Assembly: GCA_020057985.1 (NCBI GenBank)
Contig: JAGVEU010000473.1
Span: forward strand, 1 to 16,751
DNA from: Calditrichota bacterium
Lineage (GTDB): Bacteria > Electryoneota > RPQS01
Length of the DNA stretch: 16,751 nucleotides
Direction: 5' to 3'
The notes beneath the pieces are model-generated. The model worked only from the letters and a program-made list of their open reading frames with translations. It was not told the origin of the DNA and searched no databases. The translations under genes and the position numbers were made by a program. Each line of letters opens with the position of its first letter. Within the stretch, counting starts at the first letter, position 1. Shown here in pieces: positions 8,222 to 12,318 of the stretch.

Positions 8222-8482
8222 TCAGGTGTGAAGATCAAGTGGCGGCTGGCGGTGATTGCCTGTTGCCGGAGGCGGGAATGACGGCATGAAGCGGAGACGA
8301 ATTCTGGGAAAGATGGTCAGCACTTGAACAAGGATTTCGTCACCGGGAGACATGTCCTGTTCCGGCTCAGCGACGAGCGTATGTCCTTTCAGGTTGATGA
8401 GTACGCGACTGGCGCTTAGTTTTCGGCGGACGGAGGCGGAAAGAATCTCGCCTACGCGAAGAGGAATACGATGCATAGCCAA
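8222..8482 (-). CDS. Small protein resembling the FliK-type N-terminal beta domain
   Basis: An 86-residue protein I do not recognise with certainty. Residues about 8-66 form a predicted all-beta unit: LRVGEILSASVRR, then VLINLKGHTLVAEPE, then MSPGDEILVQVLTIFPRIRLRF. This pattern (VGE..-A.V.., L.-G-..L.A, L.PGD.L...V....P...L) resembles, from memory, the N-terminal module found in some FliK-like hook-length proteins. Here it stands alone, followed by a short Pro-rich tail (67-86). No FliK C-terminal domain is encoded nearby. The start is probably TTG at 8482 with AAGGA 9 bases upstream; ATG at 8476 is the alternative. It is the last gene of its unit, before the terminator. The functional link to hook length is inference. 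Confidence 0.65.
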   Translation of the reverse strand: MAMHRIPLRVGEILSASVRRKLSASRVLINLKGHTLVAEPEQDMSPGDEILVQVLTIFPRIRLRFMPSFPPPATGNHRQPPLDLHT

Positions 8483-8509: not shown

Positions 8510-9706
8510 CTATTGATTAAGATCCAGAATGAGTTTGACCTCATCCTGTCCCATCTCAAGTTCTTGGGCAATGGACTGAATGTTGTGGCCCTGCTTGGAT
8601 AGTTCAAGGACGCGACGAACACGGCGATCCATCAGAGTCTCTTTGATTTCATCCTCGCCCCTCGTACCCTCCTCCTTGAATGCCCGCATCTCTGCTGCGA
8701 CCGGCAGGACAACAGGTATCGTCGCGGTCGTCGTGGCTTCACTCGTCTGCTCGCTTTCAACCGCAGCATGAAGCATCTGAAGATCCGCTTCGAGTTCTTC
8801 CGCTTGATCTCGCGGCGTGGCGGGCGATTTCTTGATTTCGACTCTGGGCAGATGAATCCGCATTCGTGGAAATAGCTTTGCAGCAAGTATGCCACCTATC
8901 AAACCGGCAACAAATGCCAAAACAATATATAGCAGAGATGGAAGTTGCGTTATGGGATTGTCAATCTGTTTTGGCTGACTGGGAGTTCTTGTGGTCAGGT
9001 CGAACTCTGGAGAAAGGTCAAGGGCTCTGCCAGTTAATTGCTGATAATGAGCGGCCTCTGCATTAGCTCTCACAGAGTCTCCCACAGCAAGATAGAAGTA
9101 GGCAAGCACGGCACGGACTTTGACGGGATCAAGGGAGTCTGAAAGAAACACGGTGATGCCGGCAAGCTTTGTCGGAATGGGTTGATCGCCGGGGATGTAC
9201 TCAGGGCGGACTTCTTCTTCAGCCATTTTGGTAGGAATCGGGCGATCACCGGGGATATAATCCGGTTTGCTTTCATTCACAGGCTCCGATTCGGTCTGCG
9301 TGGTTCTGGCTGCAATATCAATCGCCAGTCTCCACGGGCGTCCCGGCAGAGTTAGCTTTGAGGGCGATGCCTCTTTGGTCACTGGGATTTCAAAGACGAG
9401 GCTGTTATTCCCCTCGCGAAATGCCTTGAGACTCATGATTGTTGACAATCCGCGAGGCAGAGGAGGGAGTGCAAAGGTTGGCGATGCTGATACCCCATCA
9501 AACCGCACTTCTATGGTCTGATCGGCTCTGATTTCAATGCGACTTGCAACCTCACTCTCAAACTCAAACACAATGCGGTCGAAGTTTCTGTGCGGTCCGA
9601 TACGAACTTGGAGCAAGGTGTTGGCCAGCCCGCAATGAGACATTAAGGCGAGCGCAAGAACAGTGATCCAACTCCAGCGTGCTTCTATATGGCCGAGAAA
9701 GTGCAT
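8510..9706 (-). CDS. AMIN-like / single TM / C-terminal HTH protein in the SwrB position
   Basis: About 398 residues from the ATG at 9706; a TTG at 9715, overlapping the upstream gene, is the alternative. Numbering below is from the TTG. Residues 14-31 look like a signal peptide. An AMIN-like beta domain follows (about 33-137), with VRIGPHRNFDRIVFEFES near 37-54 and a closing RLAIDI at 129-134. A duplicated linker motif (151-163 and 171-183) and one TPR-like helix pair (about 193-230) come next. A transmembrane helix spans 259-282, then a basic and then acidic cytoplasmic linker. The last 40 residues form a helix-turn-helix resembling the DUF6115-type C-terminus seen, as I recall, in Firmicutes proteins next to flagellar sigma factors, including SwrB. 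Topology would place AMIN in the periplasm and the HTH in the cytoplasm. Function is not established. Confidence 0.72.
   Translation of the reverse strand: MHFLGHIEARWSWITVLALALMSHCGLANTLLQVRIGPHRNFDRIVFEFESEVASRIEIRADQTIEVRFDGVSASPTFALPPLPRGLSTIMSLKAFREGNNSLVFEIPVTKEASPSKLTLPGRPWRLAIDIAARTTQTESEPVNESKPDYIPGDRPIPTKMAEEEVRPEYIPGDQPIPTKLAGITVFLSDSLDPVKVRAVLAYFYLAVGDSVRANAEAAHYQQLTGRALDLSPEFDLTTRTPSQPKQIDNPITQLPSLLYIVLAFVAGLIGGILAAKLFPRMRIHLPRVEIKKSPATPRDQAEELEADLQMLHAAVESEQTSEATTTATIPVVLPVAAEMRAFKEEGTRGEDEIKETLMDRRVRRVLELSKQGHNIQSIAQELEMGQDEVKLILDLNQ
9167..9265 (-). repeat. In-gene tandem duplication with a 60-base period
   Basis: Two copies of a roughly 39-base unit (9167-9205 and 9227-9265) lie 60 bases apart inside the AMIN-TM-HTH gene. 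They encode PDYIPGDRPIPTK and PEYIPGDQPIPTK. Bases differ at several positions while the residues are nearly the same, so the duplication is old and the peptide appears conserved. Confidence 0.8.
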
Positions 9707-9707
9707 T

Positions 9708-10010
9708 TCAGACAACTATGTCGAGGGGACCGTCTTTGCTTTCCGATTGAGGAGATTTCTTGGTGACGTCAGCAGTTGGCTCGGACGGTTCTTGATTCTC
9801 CTGCTTTGCCTGTTGCTCGGCAGATGATTCGTACTTGTCCTCGCCCATCTCATGCTCGTGCTTTCGCTCGTCATGGACTTCGTGCACAGCATCATGGAAC
9901 TCATAGGAGAAATCGCGGGATGAGCCTCGTTCGCTGGCTTTGGGCTGTCGGACACGCCCCGCATACTCGTTCACCCGAAGGTGCTCTTGATTGTCGAGAG
10001 GTCTGACCAT
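9708..10010 (-). CDS. Small charged His-rich protein following the sigma factor
   Basis: A 100-residue hydrophilic protein of unknown function. It has no signal peptide or membrane segment. The N-terminus (MVRPLDNQEHLRVNE) and the C-terminus (GPLDIVV) look like short ordered ends around a disordered, highly charged middle. Six histidines fall between residues 10 and 53, five of them in 39-53 amid Glu and Asp. From memory, small proteins in Clostridia and Thermotogae flagellar loci share this plan (an R-P-[IL]-D start and an [IL]-D-I-x-[IV] end), but I cannot verify that. An AGGA sequence 9 bases upstream supports the ATG at 10010. It overlaps the TTG of the next gene or ends 1 base before its ATG, and lies 31 bases after fliA. 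Confidence 0.7.
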   Translation of the reverse strand: MVRPLDNQEHLRVNEYAGRVRQPKASERGSSRDFSYEFHDAVHEVHDERKHEHEMGEDKYESSAEQQAKQENQEPSEPTADVTKKSPQSESKDGPLDIVV

Positions 10011-10041: not shown

Positions 10042-10809
10042 CTAATTACTCATGCTGACATGAACTCCAGAGCGCAGATTGAGGATGGCTTTGCTATGGA
10101 TCTGTGAAACGCGAGACTCGGTCAGATTCAGGATATCTCCAATTTCCTTCAGCGTCAGCTCTTCGTAGTAATACAGCGCAACGACGAGCTTTTCCTGCTC
10201 CGGAAGGTTCTTCAGCCGGTGCACCAGCAACTCGCGAAGTTCTTGTTCTTCGAGACGTTCTTGACTTGAGGGCGATTCACGATCCATCGCCATGTCGGCA
10301 ATGGAGGACGAATCGCCGCGAGCGTTGTGAAATGTGTCATCAAGCGAAAGCAGCGTTGTGACATTCACATCATCAAGCATGTCGTAATACTCGTCGAGTG
10401 GGACTCCGAGTCTGTCGGCGACTTCGCCATCCTGCGGAGTGCGTCCGAGTTCTTGCAACAGAGCTTCGATGTTCTTTTCAAGCAGTCGCGCCTTCTGCCG
10501 GATGGAGCGGGGAACCCAATCGAGTTCGCGCAGGCTGTCCACCATGGCGCCGCGAATACGATTCATCGCAAAGGTCTCGAAGCGGATGCCGAGACTCGGG
10601 TCGAAGCTGTCAAGACAGGAGAGCAATCCGACGACTCCCGCAGAGATCAGATCATCCAGGCGCACGTTGCGCGGCAGGGTGCCAAGCATCCGACCGGCGA
10701 TTCTGCGCACGAGCGGCATATACTGCAACAGCAAGCGCTCGCGCATCTCAGGAGATCGCGAGCAGGTGTATGCTTCCCAGCCTGCGGCTGATGAACTTAG
10801 GGTTTTCAT
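10042..10809 (-). CDS. fliA: FliA/WhiG-family flagellar sigma factor (sigma-28)
   Basis: A 255-residue sigma-70 family group 3 factor for late flagellar and chemotaxis genes. Region 2 spans about 25-95 and includes YMPLVRRIAGRM, then LDDLISAGVVGLL. The segment RIRGAMVDSLRELDWVPRSIR at 84-104 is diagnostic of FliA/WhiG. Region 3 spans about 105-165. Region 4 holds the -35-binding helix-turn-helix, LTLKEIGDILNLTESRVSQI at 218-237. Length is close to B. subtilis SigD (254). It starts 4 bases after the 95-residue gene. No flgM anti-sigma factor gene is visible in the window. Confidence 0.94.
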   Translation of the reverse strand: MKTLSSSAAGWEAYTCSRSPEMRERLLLQYMPLVRRIAGRMLGTLPRNVRLDDLISAGVVGLLSCLDSFDPSLGIRFETFAMNRIRGAMVDSLRELDWVPRSIRQKARLLEKNIEALLQELGRTPQDGEVADRLGVPLDEYYDMLDDVNVTTLLSLDDTFHNARGDSSSIADMAMDRESPSSQERLEEQELRELLVHRLKNLPEQEKLVVALYYYEELTLKEIGDILNLTESRVSQIHSKAILNLRSGVHVSMSN

Positions 10810-10813
10810 CGGG

Positions 10814-11101
10814 TTAACGTGACGGACTTAAACCGGGTTTTTCGACAGCAATTATTTTGGTCTCTCCAACATGCGGGCTGGAGCGAATCACGACGGATTT
10901 TGCGTGGTTGCTGAGATAGCGAAACACAACCTCCACGATTTCGCCGCTCAAATACAGAACGCCCCACAACACAGCCACTCGAATCAGGAGCGACAAGTAT
11001 GGCATTTCCCGCCACAGTCCATAGGCGGCCACACCGAGGACAACGATTCTCCGGAGAAGAATCAGAAGTTCCCTTAGCTCAGATGACTCTCGTTTTGCCA
11101 T
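10814..11101 (-). CDS. Small two-helix membrane protein between flhF and fliA
   Basis: A 95-residue protein of unknown function. Two hydrophobic segments, about residues 13-30 and 36-62, predict a membrane hairpin. The N-terminal 12 residues are charged (MAKRESSELREL) and the C-terminal 33 residues are soluble and basic. No motif is recognised. It occupies the place where flhG (the MinD-like partner of flhF) is found in many flagellar clusters. It begins 20 bases after flhF and ends 4 bases before fliA, so it is surely in the same transcript. There is no clear Shine-Dalgarno. Confidence 0.75.
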   Translation of the reverse strand: MAKRESSELRELLILLRRIVVLGVAAYGLWREMPYLSLLIRVAVLWGVLYLSGEIVEVVFRYLSNHAKSVVIRSSPHVGETKIIAVEKPGLSPSR

Positions 11102-11121
11102 GATGATTCGGTTCGGTCGCT

Positions 11122-12318
11122 TCAGCTTATCGGTGACGTTGGCATTCCAATTTGTCTATTGGCAGTGTCATTCTGCGGAGAATGCAGAATCCACGTGCGC
11201 AATAGTTCCGGTTTGAATCTTTCAATATTCCCGGTGAAATTCTGCCCTGTCCCGAGCCACGCTACAGGTTTCTGCGCGGCGCCGGCTATATTCAGAAGAT
11301 AGCCACGACGCAGGGATTCATCGAGTCGAGTGAAGGTCAGGTGAGATACGGAAATCTCTCTGAACTTTTCACATGCGAGCCTCAGTTCTTCATCGCGAAT
11401 TGTTGAATTGAGAACAAGATGAATCTCATCGGGGTCGAGGGCGTCAATGAACTGCTTCAGGGACGAGAGACGCTCATTATCTTGCGGCGAAATCCCGGCA
11501 CTATCCACCAATATGATTTCGCAATTTGCAAGCCTTGACAACGCGATTTGCGCCTGATCGGGCTGGTACACCACTTCGAGCAATGTACCGGCAATTCGCG
11601 CATAGGTCTTGAGTTGCTCAATGGCTGCCATGCGATTAGTGTCCAAGGAAATCAGTCCGACCTTTCGCCGGCCATAGGCGACGGGATCGGTGGCCAATTT
11701 CTCAAGTGTGGTTGTCTTGCCCGCTCCGGGCGGACCGATCAGTGCGATCTTGTACGGGGCTTTGCGGCGGATTTCAACTGCCGGCGCCGGACGCATCACT
11801 TGTGACAGTTTGCGCAGCAAGTAGCCTTCGACCGCTTCGGCAGAAATTAGCTCCTGCGGCCCAAGTTGAATGAGCGCTTCCTGCACCATGTCTATAGCAA
11901 GTGTCTTGTCAACGCCCGATTCCCCAATGGTCTCACAGAATCTGGCCAGTTCCTGTGGCATATCCGGCAACTTATTGTGTTTGATACGATTGCCTATGAT
12001 CAGGAGTTCATCGCGCAGATTCTTGATTTCATCCTTGAGGAGGGCAATCTCAAATCGCGGTCGCGGGGGGAGTTCTTGATCTTGCTGTCGAGTCATTGTG
12101 CTTTCAAATGTTTCAGCAAAATCAGGGCCAGTCAGAATGCTATCCTGAACATCCTCCGGACGTGCGGCCGTAACTTCGATGAGATCATGTCTTAGGAAAT
12201 TCAGGCCGCCCGCCTTCACTTTCTCGGATTTCAAAATGATGGCGTCTTCTCCGAGAGTCCTTTTGACCTTGGCAAGCGCTTCCTTCATCGTCGGAGCGAC
12301 GAATTTTTCTGCATTCAT
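11122..12318 (-). CDS. flhF: Flagellar SRP-family GTPase FlhF
   Basis: A 398-residue member of the SRP GTPase family that sets flagellar position and number and helps initiate basal-body assembly at the membrane. The N-terminal B domain covers about 1-90 and begins KFVAPTMKEALAKVKRTLGEDA. The N domain spans about 95-180 and the G domain 188-398. The P-loop GPPGAGKT is at 195-202, then DTNRMAAIEQLKTYA at 226-240. G3 reads DSAGI (272-276) where SRP GTPases have DTAGR. G4 reads TRLD (330-333) instead of TKxD. The closing loop GTGQN is at 356-360. AGGAT lies 8 bases upstream of the ATG. It follows flhA by 6 bases. Weak G3/G4 motifs could mean altered GTPase kinetics. Confidence 0.92.
   Translation of the reverse strand: MNAEKFVAPTMKEALAKVKRTLGEDAIILKSEKVKAGGLNFLRHDLIEVTAARPEDVQDSILTGPDFAETFESTMTRQQDQELPPRPRFEIALLKDEIKNLRDELLIIGNRIKHNKLPDMPQELARFCETIGESGVDKTLAIDMVQEALIQLGPQELISAEAVEGYLLRKLSQVMRPAPAVEIRRKAPYKIALIGPPGAGKTTTLEKLATDPVAYGRRKVGLISLDTNRMAAIEQLKTYARIAGTLLEVVYQPDQAQIALSRLANCEIILVDSAGISPQDNERLSSLKQFIDALDPDEIHLVLNSTIRDEELRLACEKFREISVSHLTFTRLDESLRRGYLLNIAGAAQKPVAWLGTGQNFTGNIERFKPELLRTWILHSPQNDTANRQIGMPTSPIS

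Follow-up and report, generated by a model that had tools for sequence, protein, structure and literature searches.

SwrB of Bacillus subtilis and FipA of Pseudomonas, Vibrio and Shewanella are flagellar accessory proteins that belong to two separate literatures. swrB lies at the end of the fla/che operon; SwrB increases the frequency of hooks, its suppressors fall in FliP expression and FliG, and swrB can be bypassed by a FliG polymerisation allele or by FliP dosage (PMC4526659). An effect of SwrB on sigma-D activity, noted initially, was later attributed to hook completion, and in 2015 the protein was described as conserved only in the genus Bacillus (PMC4526659). The DUF2802 domain of FipA binds the GTPase FlhF, with G110 and L129 of FipA being required, FlhG is reported to accompany FipA, and the accessible text of the same paper gives FipA as absent from Bacillus (PMC11620751). 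Here we describe a gene of a Calditrichota bacterium on contig JAGVEU010000473.1 (assembly GCA_020057985.1; the 16,751 nucleotides analysed are referred to as the window). Its product, the target protein, is almost certainly a member of DUF6115, a family that SwrB-named proteins match. We take it for a putatively wall-anchored, single-pass member of a broad family to which SwrB (DUF6115) and, most likely, FipA (DUF2802) belong. The term DUF6115 was not found in the literature searched, which also made no connection between SwrB and FipA, a link that may be raised outside the main text of PMC11620751. The kind of flagellar accessory protein is known; what is new is the domain architecture, and two separate literatures are connected.

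The C-terminal domain compared with SwrB and FipA

The sequence-only reading of this DNA had noted an AMIN domain, a transmembrane helix and a helix-turn-helix in a protein encoded after the flagellar sigma factor, and this observation was confirmed. The gene and the parts of its product, from the N-terminus onwards, are:

8510..9706, minus strand: target gene, 398 aa, encoding a signal peptide, AMIN domain, hairpin, transmembrane helix, acidic linker and DUF6115 domain
9623..9706, minus strand: signal peptide region, residues 1-28, with a hydrophobic helix at 7-22 in the structural model and a predicted topology
9305..9622, minus strand: AMIN domain, residues 29-134
9158..9265, minus strand: linker, residues 148-183, with the conserved motif Y-I-P-G-D-x-P-x-x-T, here in two copies
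9032..9127, minus strand: periplasmic helical hairpin of the model, residues 194-225, aligned to the tetratricopeptide repeat (TPR) region of wider-phylum homologues
8873..8944, minus strand: transmembrane helix of the model, residues 255-278
8657..8815, minus strand: membrane-proximal helix (298-322) and disordered acidic linker (326-350), both from the model
8516..8656, minus strand: C-terminal trihelical domain (DUF6115/DUF2802), residues 351-397, from profile matches and the model

The DUF6115 check proposed for the C-terminus came out positive, residues 307-396 scoring 34.8 bits against PF19610, over the cut-off of 27. The statement that SwrB is of this type was also borne out, in that SwrB-named proteins match DUF6115 and one of the five scanned exceeds the cut-off (P0186 at 28.7 bits, whose UniRef label ends at 'Swr'; the others reach 21.1, 22.0, 23.9 and 26.5 bits, with E-values (E) of 9.4e-6 to 4.3e-4). 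A Bacilli protein encoded directly downstream of a FliA open reading frame (L217) lies over the cut-off at 32.0 bits and has 364 database relatives, some of them named SwrB among the 120 matches listed, and the B. subtilis control genome holds a DUF6115 match of unstated strength. Profile comparison by hhalign of the target family with the Bacilli DUF6115 set gave a probability of 97.0 and E 1.1e-10.

The position of the gene is likewise SwrB-like, as had been claimed: it follows the flagellar sigma factor gene (fliA-orf100-target) within a flagellar operon, much as swrB stands last in fla/che (PMC4526659), and in both cases the gene lies downstream of flhF and encodes a DUF6115-type C-terminal trihelical domain with a single transmembrane segment. 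Of 30 Bacilli loci, only 8 have a FliA match inside the 1.5-kb flank. The proteins differ in that the SwrB-named ones carry their transmembrane segment at the N-terminus and have no periplasmic domain, whereas the target has a signal peptide, an AMIN domain and a hairpin before it. The proposal of a SwrB counterpart was right as to family; as to function, export activation is a possibility suggested by analogy.

The AMIN-like periplasmic domain of the earlier description proved to be a real AMIN beta-sandwich fold, although its score against Pfam AMIN-like (PF24837; 23.1 bits, E 8.5e-5) misses the cut-off of 27. By analogy with the AmiC and PilQ proteins discussed in PMC12403147, we propose that it may bind peptidoglycan. 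A comparable layout of periplasmic AMIN domain, one transmembrane helix and cytoplasmic domain occurs in another flagellar protein, the AMIN-bearing FliO of Campylobacterota and others (PMC12403147). The FliO core consists of a transmembrane helix and a cytoplasmic beta-sheet, whereas the cytoplasmic part of the target is all-helical in the model and matches DUF6115, and no FliO Pfam match was found in it up to E 10. A profile search of solved structures returned only designed helix-turn-helix repeats, marginally (8vd6), and the protein search scored only the 7997 candidates with most words in common. Between the AMIN domain and the hairpin, the motif YIPGDxPIPTK is doubled in the target and single in the remaining alignment rows; Y150, P152, G153, D154 and T159 are invariant in 26 aligned family rows, a strong conservation for a disordered linker.

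The sequence-only reading missed a match to the FlhF-binding DUF2802 domain of FipA. The DUF6115 and DUF2802 matches fall on identical residues of the C-terminus. At E<=0.01, DUF2802 (PF10975) was found in 10 of 26 members of the target's own family (GerE and HTH_23 in one each; the best DUF2802 score among the members scanned is 28.8 bits), in 6 of 14 wider-phylum DUF6115 proteins and in 19 of 25 Bacilli proteins, all 25 of which match DUF6115 (HTH_7 10, Sigma70_r4_2 9). One Bacilli protein (L199, genome G210) exceeds both curated cut-offs, with 40.6 against 27 bits for DUF6115 and 35.9 against 33.5 for DUF2802. Since some DUF6115-carrying Paenibacillus members bear DUF2802 names in UniRef, the databases mix both families; Paenibacillus and other Bacilli proteins (L106, P0057-P0176) are called DUF2802 or DUF6115 depending on the source.

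Residue register points the same way. In P. putida FipA, which scores 83.9 bits against DUF2802, G104 and L123 are exactly the mutant positions as numbered by the FipA paper (PMC11620751), and G104, E120 and L123 correspond to G373, E389 and L392 of the target, with the same spacing of 16 and 3. Within the target family, E and L are each present in 56 of 56 members and G in 46 of 56, while all three occur in 120 of the 120 listed L217 relatives (of 364), SwrB-named proteins included. The triad is found in 74/74 Pseudomonas FipA proteins and in 55/3070 control open reading frame tails. By hhalign, the target family matches FipA at E 5.8e-4 and the best control, FliA region 4, at 2.7e-3; the controls were the N and C ends of 42 Pseudomonas open reading frame families (84 comparisons per profile). 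Of these 42 families, 24 are read from the opposite strand and probably do not represent genes. When 8138 Pseudomonas open reading frames were searched with hidden Markov models of four C-terminal-domain profiles, FipA came top with two (9.5 and 12.9 bits), whereas the first FipA-like sequence ranked 12 with the Bacilli profile and 106 with the wider-phylum profile; on its own, this direct search does not show homology. For the Bacilli, 25 of 30 loci entered this search, and alignment A3 comprises 24 loci and the Paenibacillus protein L106.

FipA thus shares with the target a membrane-tethered C-terminal domain with G, E and L in register and a gene near an operon containing flhF. It was located in 73 of 80 Pseudomonas loci, most of the other seven being cut short by the contig, and in these 73 it starts 8.5 to 9.4 kb beyond the end of fliA. 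It differs in its length of 131 aa (P. putida) or 163 aa (V. parahaemolyticus, PMC11620751), in its short periplasmic tail, and in its association with FlhG, for which the target's family gave no convincing match. We consider common ancestry of the DUF6115 and FipA domains likely, while a shared FlhF-binding function is a more tentative proposition, held at somewhat less than even odds. Because the domain matches DUF2802 of FipA and flhF lies in the same operon, FlhF is at least as good a candidate for the partner of the target, and the SwrB reading should be widened to take in FipA as well, with FlhF in the role of proposed partner.

The operon and co-occurrence with FlhF

A minus-strand flagellar operon fills the window: fliR, flhB, flhA, flhF, orf95, fliA, orf100, the target gene, orf86, flgF, flgG, flgA, flgH, flgI, flgJ, flgN-like, flgK and flgL, names that were assigned by reading the sequences. 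The neighbours discussed below are:

11122..12318, minus strand: flhF, encoding the proposed partner, a GTPase of the signal recognition particle (SRP) type; 172 bits against TIGR03499, slightly below the cut-off of 174.15
10814..11101, minus strand: orf95, a 95-aa membrane protein between flhF and fliA
10042..10809, minus strand: fliA (sigma-28), the family being named by reading the sequence
9708..10010, minus strand: orf100, a small charged protein of 100 aa, 1 base upstream of the target gene and retained with it
8222..8482, minus strand: orf86, 86 aa, the gene after the target in the operon

The order flhA-flhF-orf95-fliA-orf100-target is found in the window and in all seven other family contigs that are long enough.

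Presence of the family follows that of FlhF in part. Among 76 genomes with FlhA, 65 have FlhF and 11 do not; 49 of the former and 1 of the latter have a DUF6115 or DUF2802 match at E<=0.01 (p 5e-5). FlhF was scored as present by a threshold of our own, at least 110 bits within a single frame. The FlhA set at E<=1e-20 may take in non-flagellar relatives (4 of the 11 FlhF-lacking genomes exceed the curated FlhA cut-off), and the test was therefore repeated with FlhA over its own cut-off, which gave 46/61 against 0/4 (p 0.006). With the family over the DUF6115 cut-off the counts are 32/65 and 0/11, and with both FlhA and DUF6115 over their cut-offs 30/61 and 0/4 (p 0.12); outside the phylum, the match at E<=0.01 is found in 21/32 genomes with FlhF and 1/10 without (p 0.003). 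The association is consistent, running in the same direction throughout, with small numbers of FlhF-lacking genomes. In the panel, 34 genomes exceed the DUF6115 cut-off and 32 of them have FlhA and FlhF; as a background, roughly one FlhA-lacking genome in nine gives a weak match at E<=0.01 (8 of 69, besides the f2 genomes described below). Of 45 DUF6115 genes in Bacilli, 40 share the strand of flhF and follow it at a distance of about 5.5-11.4 kb; of the other five, two are on other contigs, one is in a genome that shows no flhF, and two lie elsewhere. Because nearly all FlhA-bearing Bacilli panel genomes have FlhF, this panel is uninformative on FlhF dependence.

Other features of the operon were noted in passing. 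orf100 ends in DIVV, with DFKI, DIKV or DVRT in positional counterparts elsewhere and DITV or DIVI in f2 genomes; this terminus is a conserved C-terminal tag. Ahead of fliA, and after flhF or flhG, a gene for a small membrane protein occurs in the target's family and at two wider-phylum loci (L083:4248-4688; L093:10183-10545). orf86 has no Pfam or NCBIfam match, PHROGs gave no match, and promoter and terminator counts in the window lie within one standard deviation of shuffles.

Counter-evidence and relatives apparently without a flagellum

Several observations weigh against a single FlhF-binding family embracing SwrB, FipA and the target. On the target itself, DUF2802 scores 15.5 bits, below its cut-off of 33.5, as do all ten Paenibacillus proteins with a precomputed DUF2802 label when scored with the present Pfam copy. 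One Bacilli protein (L193) exceeds the cut-off of the generic Sigma70_r4_2 family (27.4 against 25.7) and is a counter-example to the argument from Pfam overlap. The L of the triad varies, with G 21, E 25 and L 11 of 25 in the Bacilli panel and, among 14 wider-phylum proteins, G in 12, E in 14 and L in 6, so that it is not universal. Two of the three hhalign comparisons fail to separate FipA from FliA region 4: the Bacilli DUF6115 profile gives E 1.4e-5 and 2.3e-5, respectively, and in the wider phylum FliA region 4 (9.6e-5) beats FipA (4.7e-4). Since controls rival FipA there, the FipA link is drawn from Pfam overlap, operon position and residue register and not from hhalign.

The FlhF association also loosens under stricter settings. 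Outside the phylum it falls to 9/32 against 0/10 over the DUF6115 cut-off (p 0.086), to 19/29 against 0/3 with FlhA over its cut-off and the family at E<=0.01 (p 0.058), and to 8/29 against 0/3 with both cut-offs (p 0.55); all the association tests ignore relatedness and include few FlhF-lacking genomes. FlhG is the usual partner of FlhF, and FlhF without FlhG is unusual. In the target's family FlhG was not found, the best match having E 5.8e-9 against 7.6e-73 or lower in 13/13 wider-phylum genomes, and no open reading frame with a MinD-type Walker motif occurs in 12 family and order loci. An occurrence only alongside FlhF and FlhG, as for FipA, is thus not seen here: family f1 has FlhF (172 bits) and no FlhG, and f2 is without both. 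Wider-phylum genomes carry flhG between flhF and fliA, where none was found in the target's family (10042-12318 in the window). The membrane-proximal helix was considered as a stand-in for the activating motif of FlhG, DQAxxLR, and rejected: 0/56 members carry it, and 5/56 carry DQAxxL. In B. subtilis, flhF and swrB mutants differed in basal-body mobility (PMC12153297), and the classes of SwrB suppressors given in the accessible text of PMC4526659 do not include flhF, which speaks against simple relief of an FlhF block.

The most direct challenge comes from family f2, the two same-order genomes outside the target's family (G011, 96% complete; G012, 88%). Both are without FlhA, FlhF and a convincing FliG: the best FlhF match in G011 (92.8 bits) is probably another SRP-type GTPase, and its only FliG match is partial (28.6 bits) and resembles weak second matches in its kin. 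Relics persist in G011 as a 67-residue flagellin and a flgG-like stretch of about 80 codons. Nevertheless fliA, orf100, the target gene and orf86 remain intact neighbours in both (loci L078 and L079), the C-terminal motif still terminates in QDE(I/V)KLI, and eight f2-like database proteins retain all three FipA positions. These positions therefore cannot be a signature of FlhF binding only, and they may have a structural role. The position of orf86 after the target gene is thus shared with these order-mates, and the island retains sigma-28 without its usual regulon. Homologues in genomes without flagella had been named as an observation that would refute the SwrB proposal; they exist in this one lineage (2/2 f2 genomes), while elsewhere 32 of the 34 DUF6115 genomes have FlhA. 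In f2 the protein works without flagellum and FlhF, and its retention reflects either repurposing, as has been proposed for FliO, also present in some non-flagellated organisms (PMC12403147), or that FlhF is not the primary partner. This lineage is a natural test of how the domain acts without FlhF.

Proposed role and alternative explanations

For the target, a mechanism through FlhF is the explanation we favour, tentatively and at somewhat less than even odds. The AMIN domain and hairpin would fix the protein at a cell-wall site (the pole, say, or a scar left by division), from which the long acidic arm in the cytoplasm would present the C-terminal trihelical domain. As FipA binds FlhF, this domain is proposed to engage the FlhF GTPase from the same operon, which would place or license the nascent FliF/FliG base and export gate. 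One chain would then do the work of FipA and of a wall-binding landmark of the HubP/FimV type in gammaproteobacteria, where FlhF is reported to tether FliG to the polar landmark HubP (PMC11236974). HubP and FimV, in which a wall-binding periplasmic domain, a transmembrane helix and an acidic cytoplasmic arm recruit FlhF (PMC12918733, PMC11236974), are a parallel in working only; no LysM or FimV Pfam match was found in the target up to E 10, and no sequence relation was found. The SwrB genetics (FliG allele, FliP dosage bypass) fit a factor at the FliG/FliF step. The fullest form of this idea, which we think rather unlikely as a whole, makes SwrB, FipA and the wall-anchored protein one ancient FlhF-receptor family, in which the trihelical domain would control the hand-off from FlhF to FliG and so join the genetics of SwrB, with its bypass by a FliG polymerisation allele, to the biochemistry of FipA, the diderm AMIN/TPR fusion would join site selection, FlhF capture and export licensing, and the f2 protein would have outlived the flagellum in another role.

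Less probable than the FlhF mechanism, and about as probable as its fullest form, is the reading made from the sequence alone: an export activator of the SwrB type that works without FlhF. Its cytoplasmic domain would act on FliF, FliG or FliP so that the assembled base becomes secretion-proficient, and its AMIN domain would tie this switch to the cell wall. The DUF6115 matches of SwrB-named proteins, the hook frequency and the suppressors at FliP expression and FliG (PMC4526659) agree with it, as do the operon shared with flhA, flhB and fliR and the AMIN domain of FliO, another export-gate factor, which matters for FlhB stability (PMC12403147). Such an activator would not predict that none of the 11 FlhA-bearing, FlhF-lacking genomes exceeds the DUF6115 cut-off, only 4 of these 11 having FlhA over its own; moreover, the SwrB-named proteins examined have their hydrophobic stretch at the N-terminus, and the target gene is retained in genomes that lack FlhA.

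That retention, with fliA-orf100-target-orf86 intact in both f2 genomes that appear to have lost the flagellum, agrees with a membrane regulator tied to FliA, or with an envelope role outside the flagellum, for which the flagellar operon is only the usual home. Between 13 other and 6 f2-like rows, picked by sequence similarity and not by genome, median identity is 63% in the C-terminal domain and 75% in the YIPGD linker motif against 27% in AMIN; the first link reported for SwrB was to the activity of sigma-D (PMC4526659), and in V. cholerae the homologue, FlrD, is linked to flagellar gene regulation (PMC11620751). We regard this role as improbable given the presence of FlhA and FlhF in 32/34 genomes over the DUF6115 cut-off, the distance between fliA and FipA in the 73 Pseudomonas loci, and the later explanation of the sigma-D effect by hook completion. 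PflA, a motor scaffold of Campylobacter jejuni, is built of helical repeats. It has, like the target, an AMIN-type N-domain, so called in PMC12403147, and a periplasmic scaffold of this kind (AMIN and TPR), whose cytoplasmic helix-turn-helix would be a general-purpose fold for docking or DNA binding with no relation to FipA, appears least probable.

If SwrB and FipA share a domain, FlhF becomes a concrete and testable partner candidate for SwrB, and bacteria with SwrB- and FipA-type proteins may initiate their flagella in a common manner. Flagellar placement outside gammaproteobacteria would likewise gain a candidate landmark with its own wall anchor.
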